A DNA stretch of 64,000 nucleotides, from positions 1 to 64,000 of the forward strand of contig SUTS01000013.1 of assembly GCA_015152555.1 (NCBI GenBank), in the 5' to 3' direction. Below are positions 4,729 through 60,929 of this stretch, piece by piece (the stretch's first letter is position 1; each line of letters begins with the position of its first letter). Source of the stretch: Cyanobacteria bacterium SIG26 (GTDB lineage: Bacteria; Cyanobacteriota; Vampirovibrionia; Gastranaerophilales; Gastranaerophilaceae). The notes beneath the pieces were generated by a model. That model made no database searches. It saw nothing but the letters and a program-made list of their open reading frames with translations, and was not told the origin of the DNA. A program made the position numbers and the translations under genes.

Positions 4729-4959
4729 ATGAATGAAAAAGAGATAATTAATTTGTTCGCAGAAAACCTACGTGTAGAACGAGCTAGAAAAGCTTACACA
4801 CAGGAGTTTTTGGCAGAAAAAGCAAATATATCCCCCGAATACCTATCCAGACTTGAAAAAGGTAAATACAATCCGACAATATGCGTTGTTGTAAACCTTG
4901 CTATAGCACTAAATATTGGTATTGATAAACTATTACCGGTTGAAAAAATTAACTCCTAG
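4729..4959 (+). CDS. XRE-family helix-turn-helix regulator
   Basis: 76 aa, essentially a single Cro/CI-type HTH domain. The helix-turn-helix reads TQEFLAEKANISPEYLSRLEKG, followed by the usual -NPT- and a final helix (ALNIGIDKLL). It is probably a DNA-binding repressor. A TATAAT box at 4709-4714 leaves a leader of only about 8 nt, and there is no Shine-Dalgarno. Its last codons overlap the convergent prs stop (CTAG serves both strands), so it has no terminator of its own. Target unknown. Confidence 0.88.
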   Translation: MNEKEIINLFAENLRVERARKAYTQEFLAEKANISPEYLSRLEKGKYNPTICVVVNLAIALNIGIDKLLPVEKINS

Positions 4960-5975
4960 CCGACTTGCATTTCTTTTTCAAAACCAAACAATGAGCTTAC
5001 AGACTCATCATCATGAATTCTTGAAATTGCCTGTGCTAACAACGGCGCAACTGAAATTTGTTTAATATTAGACGGCATTTTACTCATATCAAGAGGTATA
5101 GTATTTGTTACAATACATTGTGTAATCGGAGCTGAACCAAGTCTTTCAATTGCAGGTCCTGAAAATACTGGGTGTGTTGCACCTACATAAATTTCTTTAG
5201 CACCTTTTGATTTTAACAATTTTGAAGCCTCACAAATAGTTCCGGCAGTATCAATAATATCATCAAACATTAAGCAAACCTTACCTTCAACTTCACCAAT
5301 AACGTTTGTTGCAATAGCTTCGTTATGTTTATCACGTCTTTTATCAATAATTGCAATTGGACAGCCTAATTTTTTAGCAAAATGACGAGTTCTGTTAGCG
5401 CCACCCATATCAGGCGAAACTGCAACCATATCATCAGGATTGATATTCAAATCTTTAATGTAATTAACAATTACATTTGTTGCAAAAATATGGTCAACTA
5501 AAATATTAAAGAAACCTTGAATTTGGCCTGTATGCAAATCCATAGCCAATACTCTGTCAGCACCTGCCGTAGTCAACAAATCTGCAACTAATTTTGCAGT
5601 AATAGCCTCACGCCCAGAAGTTTTTCTATCTTGTCTAGCATAACCATAATAAGGAATAACTGCTGTAATTGTTTTAGCACTTGCACGTTTGAACGCATCA
5701 ATTATAATTAACAATTCCATCAAATTTTCATTTACAGGATTGCAAACCGGCTGAATGATAAACACATCATCTCCACGCACACTTTCTTTTACCTGAACAT
5801 AAATTTCACCGTCAGCAAAATTTTTAACAACCATTGGTCCAACAGTAGTACCTAAATAATCAGCAATTTCTTGCGCCAATCTTGGATTTGAACGTCCTGA
5901 AAATAATTTAATGTCATGTGTCGGGTTGATTGCTCGTTCAAGTTGAGAGTATGTCATTTCTTCAATTGCAGCCAT
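4956..5975 (-). CDS. prs: Ribose-phosphate pyrophosphokinase (PRPP synthase)
   Basis: 339 aa from the chosen ATG. It makes PRPP from ribose 5-phosphate and ATP for purine, pyrimidine, NAD, His and Trp synthesis. Conserved blocks visible: FSGRSNPRLAQEIADYLG, the ATP loop region (YYGYARQDRKTSGREAITAK), and the PRPP/ribose-phosphate loop CLMFDDIIDTAGTICEA. I start at MAAIEE (ATG 5973-5975) because AAAGGAATT lies just upstream; a longer in-frame start would put that site inside the gene. A promoter-like element (6065-6094) lies 90 nt upstream. The stop is shared with the convergent XRE gene. Confidence 0.96.
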   Translation of the reverse strand: MAAIEEMTYSQLERAINPTHDIKLFSGRSNPRLAQEIADYLGTTVGPMVVKNFADGEIYVQVKESVRGDDVFIIQPVCNPVNENLMELLIIIDAFKRASAKTITAVIPYYGYARQDRKTSGREAITAKLVADLLTTAGADRVLAMDLHTGQIQGFFNILVDHIFATNVIVNYIKDLNINPDDMVAVSPDMGGANRTRHFAKKLGCPIAIIDKRRDKHNEAIATNVIGEVEGKVCLMFDDIIDTAGTICEASKLLKSKGAKEIYVGATHPVFSGPAIERLGSAPITQCIVTNTIPLDMSKMPSNIKQISVAPLLAQAISRIHDDESVSSLFGFEKEMQVG

Positions 5976-6064
5976 TTTAATTCCTTTCATTATACACACT
6001 AACAGATAGATAATATTATAAAACTTAATGCAGATTACTACAATATTTTTTTAAGTTTTGTAAT

Positions 6065-6094
6065 CATATAAAACCCCTAAAAAATAAATTTGCT
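6065..6094 (-). promoter_or_regulatory. AGCAAA-N18-TATATG promoter-like element (prs)
   Basis: On the minus strand AGCAAA (6094-6089) is followed after exactly 18 nt by TATATG (6070-6065). The same layout recurs before four orphan genes in this window. The 12-mer TTTACTAGCAAA here is identical to that upstream of the 207-aa gene at 35588-36211. Confidence 0.5.
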
Positions 6095-6095
6095 A

Positions 6096-6131
6096 GTAAA
6101 AAAGAGATGAGTTAAAAAAACTTCATCTCTT
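6096..6131 (-). terminator. Terminator of the aquaporin gene
   Basis: Arms AAGAGATGA (6102-6110) and TCATCTCTT (6123-6131) with a 12-nt loop. On the minus strand they are followed by a run of T. Confidence 0.75.
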
Positions 6132-8163: not shown

Positions 8164-8405
8164 TAATATCTTTTAATAAATTTTTCAATTCCCCGAAAGA
8201 GTAATAATAGTGTACATTTTACACTTTACAAAACTTAATATTACGGGTTCTGAAGTGCATTTGGCTAAAAAATGGGTTTTATATTAATGACAAACTAAAT
8301 ATGTTACAAAATATTAATATAAATATTCTTTAAAAGGCAATTTTTTGCAAGGTATATACTTTATATATACAAGAGCAGAGTATTTATTTTAAGGATTGAT
8401 TCGAT

Positions 8406-9053: not shown

Positions 9054-9077
9054 TAAATTTTATTTGTGTCAATAATT

Positions 9078-9109
9078 ACGGGTCGTAAGATATTCGACCC
9101 GTCTTTTTT
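9078..9109 (+). terminator. Terminator between the small-protein pair and the radical SAM gene
   Basis: Arms ACGGGTCG (9078-9085) and CGACCCGT (9095-9102) with a 9-nt loop, then C and six T. It can uncouple strong expression of the small genes from the enzyme genes downstream. Confidence 0.8.
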
Positions 9110-9164
9110 CGTTACAATAAGTTATAAACTAGCAAAATTCATATTCTCGGGTTTTAAAACAAAT

Positions 9165-10643
9165 ATGAATATTCAATCTTCTCAAATTTTCAAACAAATT
9201 TACCCGACAATTGTAAACAAGAACAAACAGACTTTGGCAACAACCAAGGATTCTATTAATACATCCGGAAAAGAATCCACTCCGGAATGCATATTTAATA
9301 GAGCATATTGCAATATACATTTTGGCAATTTGGCCCCAAAATCTGAAGCCTTCCATAATGCTCGAGATTACTTGAGCAACAATCTTGAAAACATCAAATC
9401 CGCCATAACTTACAGACCGATAAATCTATATGACTTTGACTTAGACGAGCTGGAAGGGATACAAGATGGGATAGAGATATTTGAAGGTTTATCCATAAAA
9501 GAAATAGCTTTCTTATTAAGTACACTGTCAGAAGTTGCTACAAACAGAGGCTGTTATAACAATTGCTCACACTGTTATGCAGATGCCAGACCACCCCACC
9601 TAAAAAAAGAAAACCAAATCAACAAAATGGATTGGGAAGATTTCACTAATTTGACTAACGGGATAAAAGAACTCAATTCAAGACTTGGATTTAACGCAAG
9701 AGGCATAAGCAGTGACAGAACGAACTATCTAACGCCATTTCACGATTCCGACTGTATTGATATTGCGATTACAGACAAATACGGGATTGAACACGATTTC
9801 ATAGATATTAGCCAAAGACTTTATAACTCGCTTAATACACCTGTAATTTTTGACACTGCCGGATGGTCACCAAAAAACATAAAACTACAAGAAAGAGCAG
9901 AAAAGTATGTCGATTATTTTTGTAGCTTAGGTGATAACCACGACAATATTTATCAAATAAACATTTCATTTAACCCATTCCACGCACTTAATACAAAATC
10001 TGTATTTTTCAAAAAAATAGGAAATGAACCTTCCTCAGAAAAATTACGTGACTTGTACACAACAAGAATGGCTAATGTATTATACACATTTACACCATTA
10101 TTGTACAAACTTGATGGCAAAATGTCTATTTTGCCAAGAGCAATAAAGGACGAACAAGAAGGATTTGAAGGGTTCAAAGTTTCAGACTTGAATGAAATTT
10201 TTGCAGAAACAATAAAAAAACTAAAAAAAGTGTATGAAGCGGACTTTGAAAACAGGCAAATGTATATTTCAAATAAAAAACAAATAAAAACGTATTTACA
10301 TAAATACAAAACATTGTATAAAAATTCTTTATCAACAAGAATTAATATGACGGAAAAAATCAACAGAACACTAAAACAAAAACCGGATAATGAATTTCTT
10401 GAACGAGTCCAAATAATTGAAAACAATATGCCACAAACTACATTATTTGATTATTTAAATAGTGATATTATAGGAATAATAGATGCGAACGGCAAATATT
10501 ATTTAACTAATTATGTTTTGACTATCCCGACAGAATTAGCCCTCAACTTTAAAAATAAAAACAAAATAACTGCAGACATAAAACCAAACTTAACAGATGA
10601 TTACACTATTACAAAAGATTTTGTAAACGGCGAATTGTTATAA
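9165..10643 (+). CDS. Radical SAM protein of unknown substrate
   Basis: 492 aa from ATG 9165. It contains GCYNNCSHCYAD with Cys130, Cys134 and Cys137 in the CxxxCxxC spacing that binds the radical-SAM [4Fe-4S] cluster, and a following alternating strand/helix region consistent with a partial TIM barrel. I see no C-terminal SPASM-type cluster of cysteines. The first 125 residues are unlike typical radical SAM enzymes and include a CNIHFGNL segment near residue 50 (see the [IV]xF[TG] finding). The longer in-frame start at 9066 is rejected because it runs through the terminator. No clear Shine-Dalgarno. Followed after 49 nt by a metallopeptidase gene. Substrate unknown; the small proteins upstream are candidates. 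Confidence 0.82.
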   Translation: MNIQSSQIFKQIYPTIVNKNKQTLATTKDSINTSGKESTPECIFNRAYCNIHFGNLAPKSEAFHNARDYLSNNLENIKSAITYRPINLYDFDLDELEGIQDGIEIFEGLSIKEIAFLLSTLSEVATNRGCYNNCSHCYADARPPHLKKENQINKMDWEDFTNLTNGIKELNSRLGFNARGISSDRTNYLTPFHDSDCIDIAITDKYGIEHDFIDISQRLYNSLNTPVIFDTAGWSPKNIKLQERAEKYVDYFCSLGDNHDNIYQINISFNPFHALNTKSVFFKKIGNEPSSEKLRDLYTTRMANVLYTFTPLLYKLDGKMSILPRAIKDEQEGFEGFKVSDLNEIFAETIKKLKKVYEADFENRQMYISNKKQIKTYLHKYKTLYKNSLSTRINMTEKINRTLKQKPDNEFLERVQIIENNMPQTTLFDYLNSDIIGIIDANGKYYLTNYVLTIPTELALNFKNKNKITADIKPNLTDDYTITKDFVNGELL

Positions 10644-10692
10644 TATAATAAATCTATAGCAAAAATTTTTATTTACGGGGTTTGATGCAAAC

Positions 10693-11865
10693 ATGGCACG
10701 AGAATATTATTTAATATCAAAATGCACAAACATGTTGTACGCAAAATACAATGGTGATGCATTGCGCATATCAAAAGAATTCCCACATAGAGTAGATGAA
10801 ATTGTTGTCGGGAAATATGGAACAAATAAACAACGAAAAATAACTACATTCAAAGACCCAAACGGGGAAATTATAGAACGCGCATTCGACTATTCAGACA
10901 AGCCTTACAAAAATGTTTTATATAACAGACAAAACCATACCATCGGAGAAGACGAATTTATTGAATCTACAACAAAACGGCAATTTATATTAGAAAGAGA
11001 ATATCTAACTGCCTACAAAGACTTCCAAAAACAATATGCTGAACTTGGTTTAAAAACATATTTTTGGGATTTAATAAAAACAGAAACCGAACATTTGTCG
11101 CAAAACATTAATTCAGGGATAAAAATATTATCAAAAACCAGTGTAGATTTTTTTGACAAAACCGGAAAACTTTTTCACAGGTTTATTGAATATCCACATC
11201 TATTAGCAAAAAAACTAAAAAATAACACATACAAACTATTATATTTTGAAACCGACAAAGAGTATCGAATAAACCCAAATACAATATTTGAAGATAACGT
11301 GAAGTTTCCTAAAAACGATTCTTTTATTACGTATAGAGCATTAGATATAGAATCGGCAAAAACACCTATTACAAAGAAATTTCTAAAAGATAGAAAAATC
11401 GATACTACAGGAATCACAATAGATACGGATTACATTCCTCCTGATGATGAAGTAAACCAATTAAGTGCCTGCTTTATAGCTTCTGACGGTTCTATAAACT
11501 TTAACAAACTTTATACTCTTAAATCCAAAATAAAGCTAATTGGAACTGCACGCCACGAAGTCGAACACGGATGGCAATACTACTTAGATGCCAGAAACTA
11601 CGCCGGCGCAACACCTTGGCAAAGATACGTTTATGAGACCTTTGGCCCAATTCCTGAGAAAAACAAATCTCTTCAAGCCGAAGCTGATAAATGTACCGAC
11701 GCAATTGATAATTACGTAACTTACAAAGAAGATTACGAAAAATATAAAAATAATTATATTGAAATAGAAGCCGAAAAAAAGGCTAAAACAGCTCAAAATA
11801 AATATTCTCGCCAAGGAAAAAAATTAGCACAAGAATTTCCGCATATTCCACAAGAACTGTTATGA
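10693..11865 (+). CDS. Putative zinc metallopeptidase (HExxH) orphan
   Basis: 390 aa with no signal peptide. Residues 286-293 read ARHEVEHG: H288, E289 and H292 form a zincin HExxH site. A Glu-rich segment about 60 residues later (NNYIEIEAEKKAK) resembles the N-x-x-E-I-E-A-[RE] tail seen after HExxH in some phage- and toxin-associated zincins. The N-terminal 270 residues are unrecognised, Lys/Tyr/Asp-rich and apparently cytoplasmic. It follows the radical SAM gene by 49 nt, so the two are probably co-transcribed. A maturation protease for a neighbouring product is a reasonable guess, nothing more. Confidence 0.72.
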   Translation: MAREYYLISKCTNMLYAKYNGDALRISKEFPHRVDEIVVGKYGTNKQRKITTFKDPNGEIIERAFDYSDKPYKNVLYNRQNHTIGEDEFIESTTKRQFILEREYLTAYKDFQKQYAELGLKTYFWDLIKTETEHLSQNINSGIKILSKTSVDFFDKTGKLFHRFIEYPHLLAKKLKNNTYKLLYFETDKEYRINPNTIFEDNVKFPKNDSFITYRALDIESAKTPITKKFLKDRKIDTTGITIDTDYIPPDDEVNQLSACFIASDGSINFNKLYTLKSKIKLIGTARHEVEHGWQYYLDARNYAGATPWQRYVYETFGPIPEKNKSLQAEADKCTDAIDNYVTYKEDYEKYKNNYIEIEAEKKAKTAQNKYSRQGKKLAQEFPHIPQELL

Positions 11866-12480: not shown

Positions 12481-12510
12481 TATATAAAGAACCTAAAAAT
12501 AATTATTGCT
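12481..12510 (-). promoter_or_regulatory. AGCAAT-N18-TATATA promoter-like element
   Basis: On the minus strand AGCAAT (12510-12505), 18 nt, TATATA (12486-12481), 35 nt before the start of the 169-aa gene. Same spacing as the elements at 6065, 29846 and 60816. A TTAC-N6-TTAC repeat lies next to it (12527-12540). Confidence 0.5.
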
Positions 12511-12607
12511 AAATTAAGAGGAAATATTACAAAACGTTACGAAAAATTATCTTTAAAAATTATCAAATTGAGTATATAATTGTGAAAAGAATTAACACGG
12601 GGGAAAT

Positions 12608-29730: not shown

Positions 29731-29845
29731 CTTAAATCCCTTTTGCTTATAACATAGTCAGCTTTTATTTATTCTAATATAAACTCTTGAAAATTTAATT
29801 TTTAACCCCCTTTCATTACAAAACTTTACAATTTACACTAATAAA

Positions 29846-29875
29846 AGCAAATAATTATATTCAGCACTATTAATG
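29846..29875 (+). promoter_or_regulatory. AGCAAA-N18-TTAATG promoter-like element
   Basis: AGCAAA (29846-29851), 18 nt, TTAATG (29870-29875), 39 nt before the 96-aa gene. It aligns well with the element before the 174-aa gene (60816-60845). A TTAC-N6-TTAC repeat (29816-29829) lies just upstream. Confidence 0.45.
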
Positions 29876-36233: not shown

Positions 36234-36264
36234 AGTATAAAACCTCTGAAAAATATTTTTTGCT
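36234..36264 (-). promoter_or_regulatory. AGCAAA-N19-TATACT promoter-like element
   Basis: On the minus strand AGCAAA (36264-36259), 19 nt, TATACT (36239-36234). The flanking 12-mer TTTACTAGCAAA is identical to that upstream of prs. It sits directly behind the pgk terminator and 23 nt before the 207-aa gene. Confidence 0.5.
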
Positions 36265-36267
36265 AGT

Positions 36268-60815: not shown

Positions 60816-60845
60816 CATTAAAAACCGTAAATTTTATTTTTTGCT
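60816..60845 (-). promoter_or_regulatory. AGCAAA-N18-TTAATG promoter-like element
   Basis: On the minus strand AGCAAA (60845-60840), 18 nt, TTAATG (60821-60816), 31 nt before the 174-aa gene. Same spacing as the elements at 6065, 12481 and 29846. Confidence 0.5.
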
Positions 60846-60929
60846 AGTTATAAAATAAATTATACCCTTGAGACACCCATAAAAATATGATATAATAAAT
60901 AAAGATATTAAATGAGGATAGTTATTTTT

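Follow-up and report, generated by a model that had tools for sequence, protein, structure and literature searches.

The window, i.e. the whole stretch of 64,000 nucleotides that was analysed, has a G+C content of 32% and carries prs, the gene for ribose-phosphate pyrophosphokinase. A preliminary description had reported a promoter-like element, AGCAAW-N18-TWWAT, in front of prs and of genes for proteins of 169, 96, 207 and 174 residues. All five sites were found where it had placed them and proved to be real, but its list missed two further sites, in front of genes for proteins of 390 and 492 residues. We refer to the element as class A. The four proteins other than that of prs had been called orphans. 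They indeed have no Pfam match, but each has relatives in 14 to 18 of 46 genomes of the genus. For coordinates see Table 1.

Table 1. Candidate class A promoters and neighbouring features in the window, and class B loci elsewhere in the same genome.
Feature	Position	Strand	Remarks
prs, ribose-phosphate pyrophosphokinase	4956..5975	(-)	
Class A promoter of prs	6067..6096	(-)	AGCAA 6094-6090; -10 region TTTTATAT; inferred start ~6060
TTACAAAACTTAAAA box, flanked by the prs promoters	6049..6063	(-)	near-invariant in the genus
Second prs promoter, housekeeping type	6015..6043	(-)	TTGTAG-N17-TATAAT; conserved across the genus; downstream of the class A site
Class A promoter, 492-aa gene	9129..9158	(+)	newly listed; follows a terminator-like hairpin; leaderless-type ATG 9165
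Class A promoter, 390-aa gene	10656..10685	(+)	newly listed; leaderless-type ATG 10693
390-aa orphan under the 10656 site	10693..11865	(+)	includes an HEVEHG stretch
Class A promoter, 169-aa gene MLTVTSVQNQSNVNFTSK...	12483..12512	(-)	gap one base shorter
Weaker class A promoter, 96-aa gene	29844..29873	(+)	TTACAAAACTTTACA upstream at 29816
Class A promoter, 207-aa gene MQVRNSHIAFTGFKN...	36236..36266	(-)	directly 3' of the terminator-like hairpin with T-tract that follows pgk
Class A promoter, 174-aa gene MTGISYIQNQ...	60818..60847	(-)	ATG 60785
Class B loci, own genome	L003:1501, L011:1501(-), L026:1501(-), L027:1501, L174, L175, L178		

The pattern AGCAAW-N18-TWWAT marks real sites, but the true element is longer. 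In its fuller form it reads TAGCAAA, about seven A/T bases, TTTT, (a/c)(a/c)(G)G and TTTTA(TA). The loose form is only moderately enriched: the window contains eight matches against 2.3 expected (none of 100 shuffles reached eight), and the genome 92 against 26 for mirrored controls. Four of the eight window matches are not among the sites described before, and most of these four fall in coding DNA. The loose pattern mixes two sequence classes and coding noise and was dropped as a genome-wide detector. A 12-mer shared by two sites, TTTACTAGCAAA, had also been put forward as evidence; it adds little on its own, its left half being the T-tract of the preceding terminators. A two-block EM model was trained on intergenic sites only; an earlier run with AGCAA held fixed had drifted into coding sequence. 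The gap between the two blocks takes two neighbouring values in nearly all of the 32 modelled sites. A second promoter-like class (class B), AGCAATT-N8-10-AAATACTTTATATATA, was observed before other orphans with ordinary leaders. It has AGCAA in common with class A, but is without the GG step. A -10-like copy of class B is located at 8356(+) in the window.

We derived a matrix from 18-22 distinct sites that precede prs in the genomes of congeneric species, leaving out the window's own site. This matrix recovered four of the five sites described before, with scores of 31 bits (60847(-)), 28-29 bits (36266(-)), 22-25 bits (6096(-)) and 16-17 bits (29844(+)), where chance would give 0.1 matches of at least 16 bits per window. 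It also picked the sites at 10656(+) (29.5 bits) and 9129(+) (~14 bits). The fifth site, at 12510, was missed with a fixed gap (score 4.4) and reached 13.6 or 22.5 when a gap one base shorter was allowed. In a 464-kb sample, consisting of the window and twenty 20-kb stretches picked regardless of the motif, the matrix gave 25 matches of at least 12 bits (10 when reversed, 3-5 when shuffled) and 13 of at least 16 bits (0 and 0-1, respectively). Twenty of the 25 are intergenic and oriented toward a start codon 5-66 nt downstream. By our own ORF calls only 11% of the sample is intergenic, which corresponds to a binomial P of ~2e-15. The comparison of coding with non-coding DNA that the preliminary description had proposed was thus carried out, and it came out in favour of the element. 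All 13 occurrences of the string TAGCAAA-W7-TT were intergenic, and the mirrored controls gave none. The two-block model, which was partly trained on these sites, yielded 22 matches of at least 18 bits against 3 for its mirror image. Scaled up from the sample, a genome holds perhaps 50-90 such promoters.

Upstream of prs, TAGCAAA(A/T)nTTTacGG(n)TTTTA is found approximately 110-120 nt from the start codon in nearly every orthologue of the genus for which upstream DNA was read. Behind it come, in this order, a near-invariant ATTACAAAACTTAAAA and a TTGnGG-N17-TATAAT promoter of the RpoD type. The two promoter types, arranged in tandem at prs, are similar in box spacing, but have no hexamer in common. 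The TTACAAAACTTAAAA box between them resembles the HLR1 direct repeat of cyanobacteria. Boxes of the form TTACAAAACTT(W)A were observed at 6063(-), 8226(+) and 29816(+) in the window; all three are intergenic and the 464-kb sample contains no others. The copy at 29816 reads like a cyanobacterial HLR1/RpaB direct repeat.

In most cases, homologues of the 207-, 174-, 169- and 96-residue proteins from other species have the element too, at about the same distance; the conservation is weakest for the 96-residue set. The element is also present in other genera of the family, several times in front of prs. An excess of the motif was found in all 17 genomes drawn from the family (9-41 matches against 0-9 for the control). 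Genomes of other families show little or no excess, although two of them (G052 and G058, f7) are above control; some of the low counts may reflect a higher G+C content. The element is thus enriched throughout the family (Gastranaerophilales), whereas in the rest of the class it is weak or absent. A chance product of AT-rich intergenic DNA might be suspected for a 5-mer combined with a motif as loose as TWWAT at 32% G+C. However, the signal disappears once the matrix is mirrored or its columns are shuffled, which leaves the composition unchanged, the matrix was independent of the window and orthologues conserve the element. Together with the 13 intergenic matches of TAGCAAA-W7-TT this refutes a compositional artefact, to which we give practically no weight.

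The position of the start codon was determined for 108 non-redundant sites. Counted from the A of AGCAA, the ATG positions are bimodal: they peak at 34 nt (11 sites, with 22 at 32-37 nt), none lies at 38-44 nt, and leadered starts follow from 45 nt on. About one fifth of the sites have their ATG at 32-36 nt; 18 of 19 such leaderless-type starts are without a Shine-Dalgarno sequence, and other genera of the family likewise have leaderless-type starts, at 33-34 nt. Since the ATG lies either at +1 or beyond the room for a ribosome binding site and never between, the simplest reading is that transcription would start approximately 34 nt after AGCAA. In this register, which is deduced from start codons, AGCAA would occupy positions -34 to -30 and TTTWAW positions -12 to -7. 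For roughly one fifth of the sites the AUG itself seems to be the 5' end of the mRNA, and ATG 9165 and ATG 10693 are likely to be leaderless. The ORF start at GTG 9066 (ORF 9066-10643) is probably wrong and ATG 9165 the true start, because a leaderless-type ATG at this position fits the promoter at 9129(+).

Leaderless genes that carry a -10 signal immediately 5' of the ATG have been reported (PMC3160421, PMC4633059). They resemble the class A genes in having the ATG at the inferred +1 and no Shine-Dalgarno sequence, whereas in class A leaderless starts are only a subset of one promoter class. The same start positions bear on a reading of the element as a transcribed RNA feature, part of a leader or linked to a terminator, with no promoter function. 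Terminator-like T-tracts directly precede three of the window sites, as such a feature would suggest. In the leaderless-type genes, however, a mere 6-8 nt separate the end of the element from the ATG, which leaves no room for a leader, and the empty interval at 38-44 nt speaks against it as well. We therefore consider an RNA feature very improbable.

The preliminary description had left the choice between an alternative sigma factor class and an activator site beside a -10 box, and the matrix test supports this general reading, with which the start register agrees. Class A does not conform to the TTGACA-like and TATAAT-like hexamers of a housekeeping sigma-70 promoter. A TTG-N16-18-TAnnnT arrangement within 120 nt is absent at four of the seven window sites; at the prs, 390-aa and 492-aa sites it stands beside the element or overlaps it only partly. 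The sigma-54 pair GG-N10-GC (TGGCAC-N5-TTGCW) does not occur in the consensus either. An activator would be a family-specific factor that binds TAGCAAA(A/T)n at -35 (class II) and brings the housekeeping RpoD holoenzyme to a weak -10 sequence (TTTATA/TTTAAA). In favour of such a factor, class II activators typically occupy a constant position that overlaps -35, a TATAAT-like reading is feasible at some sites (TATACT, TATAAT), and the class B set (AGCAATT..ATACTTTATATA) has mainly the AGCAA part in common. On the other hand, the conserved upstream part is only about 7 bp long and asymmetric rather than the dyad of a dimer, and the leaderless register places T, not A, at -11. In view of the asymmetric element, the lack of a TATAAT in the inferred register and the narrow gap, the data lean to an alternative sigma factor, and we regard an activator as rather unlikely. 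The alternative-sigma reading agrees with the two blocks at near-constant spacing, located upstream of genes in the proper orientation. The variation of the first letters among orthologues (AGCAA, GGCAA, CGCAA, AACAA) counts against it.

The genome contains seven genes of the sigma-70 family: RpoD, a second RpoD-like factor (L183), an RpoD/RpoS-like factor (L185), a FliA/WhiG factor (L184), a divergent SigB/F/G-like factor (L186) and two ECF factors. Orthologues of L183 were found in every genome drawn from the family (at least 377 bits), whereas the scores in other families do not exceed the RpoD level (~283). This distribution is limited to the family like that of the motif and was counted in favour of an alternative sigma factor. 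However, the recognition helix of L183 retains the RpoD residues ERIRQ, which argues against AGCAA as its -35 sequence. L186 is present throughout the family, but has diverged (157-190 bits outside the genus), and its recognition helix varies between genera while AGCAA does not. The helix of L185, KECIRQTE, is unusual and invariant. L185 is family-wide like L183 and L186, and these three are the main candidates for the cognate factor. Assignment of a sigma factor by presence and absence failed, as every sigma type that the window's genome encodes is also present in the four family genomes compared. Nearness to a class A site failed likewise; a tRNA-like stretch separates L183 from the class A gene that precedes it. 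A perfect inverted repeat, AACAAATT...AATTTGTT, was observed just 5' of the L183 ORF at 1222 and is a possible operator. Four other genomes of the family (G061, G084, G100 and G106) encode a third RpoD-like sigma factor of ~335-355 residues; in the genome to which the window belongs (G000, 95.6% complete) no such factor was found.

Class A resembles the regulons of group 3 and 4 sigma factors (HrpL with its 'hrp box', sigma-28, SigB/F/G) in its bipartite -35/-10 structure with a near-constant gap, in the many scattered genes, in a -10 sequence other than TATAAT and in the lineage-specific gene set. Promoters of the SigB/SigF/SigG type read GTTTAA-N12-15-GGGTAT or GYATA-N16-GG.... They have a G-rich step just 5' of the -10 sequence in common with class A, and the genome encodes the SigB/F/G-like L186. 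Class A differs, however, in its -35 sequence, AGCAA, whose G lies at a distance of ~17 from the GG step, not ~20-21. Instead of GTTT or GYATA at 14-16 nt from a GG-type -10 sequence, class A has AGCAAAA with the GG at ~12 nt. To our knowledge, the consensus AGCAA / GTTTTATA equals no known alternative-sigma promoter. Gastranaerophilales are relatives of cyanobacteria that inhabit the gut and have become known chiefly through metagenomes; in our literature search no description of a promoter class or sigma regulon from this group turned up. The most likely reading of class A is an alternative-sigma promoter class that has not been described before and controls a lineage-specific regulon.

The genes placed behind class A elements are mainly those of lineage-specific proteins of poorly known function, with prs having the element as a second promoter. 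Among ten regulon proteins searched against Pfam, four had no match and one only a sub-threshold match. Recognisable members are a 5'-nucleotidase, an M16 peptidase, a phosphoribulokinase/uridine-kinase-like protein, a CheR-like methyltransferase and a CxxCxxCC protein; several orphans contain HExxH-like stretches. The downstream proteins often carry an N-terminal signature, [ILVPA]xF(T/G/Q/K/S/R)(G/A/S/N/T/P). In the unbiased sample the similar form [IV]xF(T/K/G/Q)(G/A/S) was present in 10 of 22 downstream proteins against 55 of 428 others (P = 3e-4), and at residues 60-120 in none of the 22. Over all sites the figures are 45 of 101 against 29 of 401, but some loci of that set had been retrieved because they encode homologues of such proteins.

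Based on these results we propose that the element probably acts as core promoter in a Gastranaerophilales-specific regulon under an alternative sigma factor. A non-housekeeping sigma factor would recruit RNA polymerase at the class A element, with AGCAA serving as the -35 box. This box would be followed by ~17-18 mostly A/T bases with a conserved TTTT(a/c)(a/c)GG, and GTTTTA(TA) at -14 to -7 would form the -10 region ahead of the start. The products would be mostly lineage-specific proteins, many with N-terminal [ILV]xF(T/K/G/Q/S)(G/A/S), together with a few enzymes and prs. It is possible, although we put this forward only tentatively, that one family-specific sigma factor runs several dozen fast-evolving proteins whose common [IV]xF(T/K/G/Q)(G/A/S) tag is a sorting or export signal. 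By exposing likely leaderless genes, the class A element corrects several start codons. It also provides a sequence handle on a regulon rich in proteins without known function, and the tie between the promoter and a recurring N-terminal signature makes a set of sorted or exported proteins directly testable.
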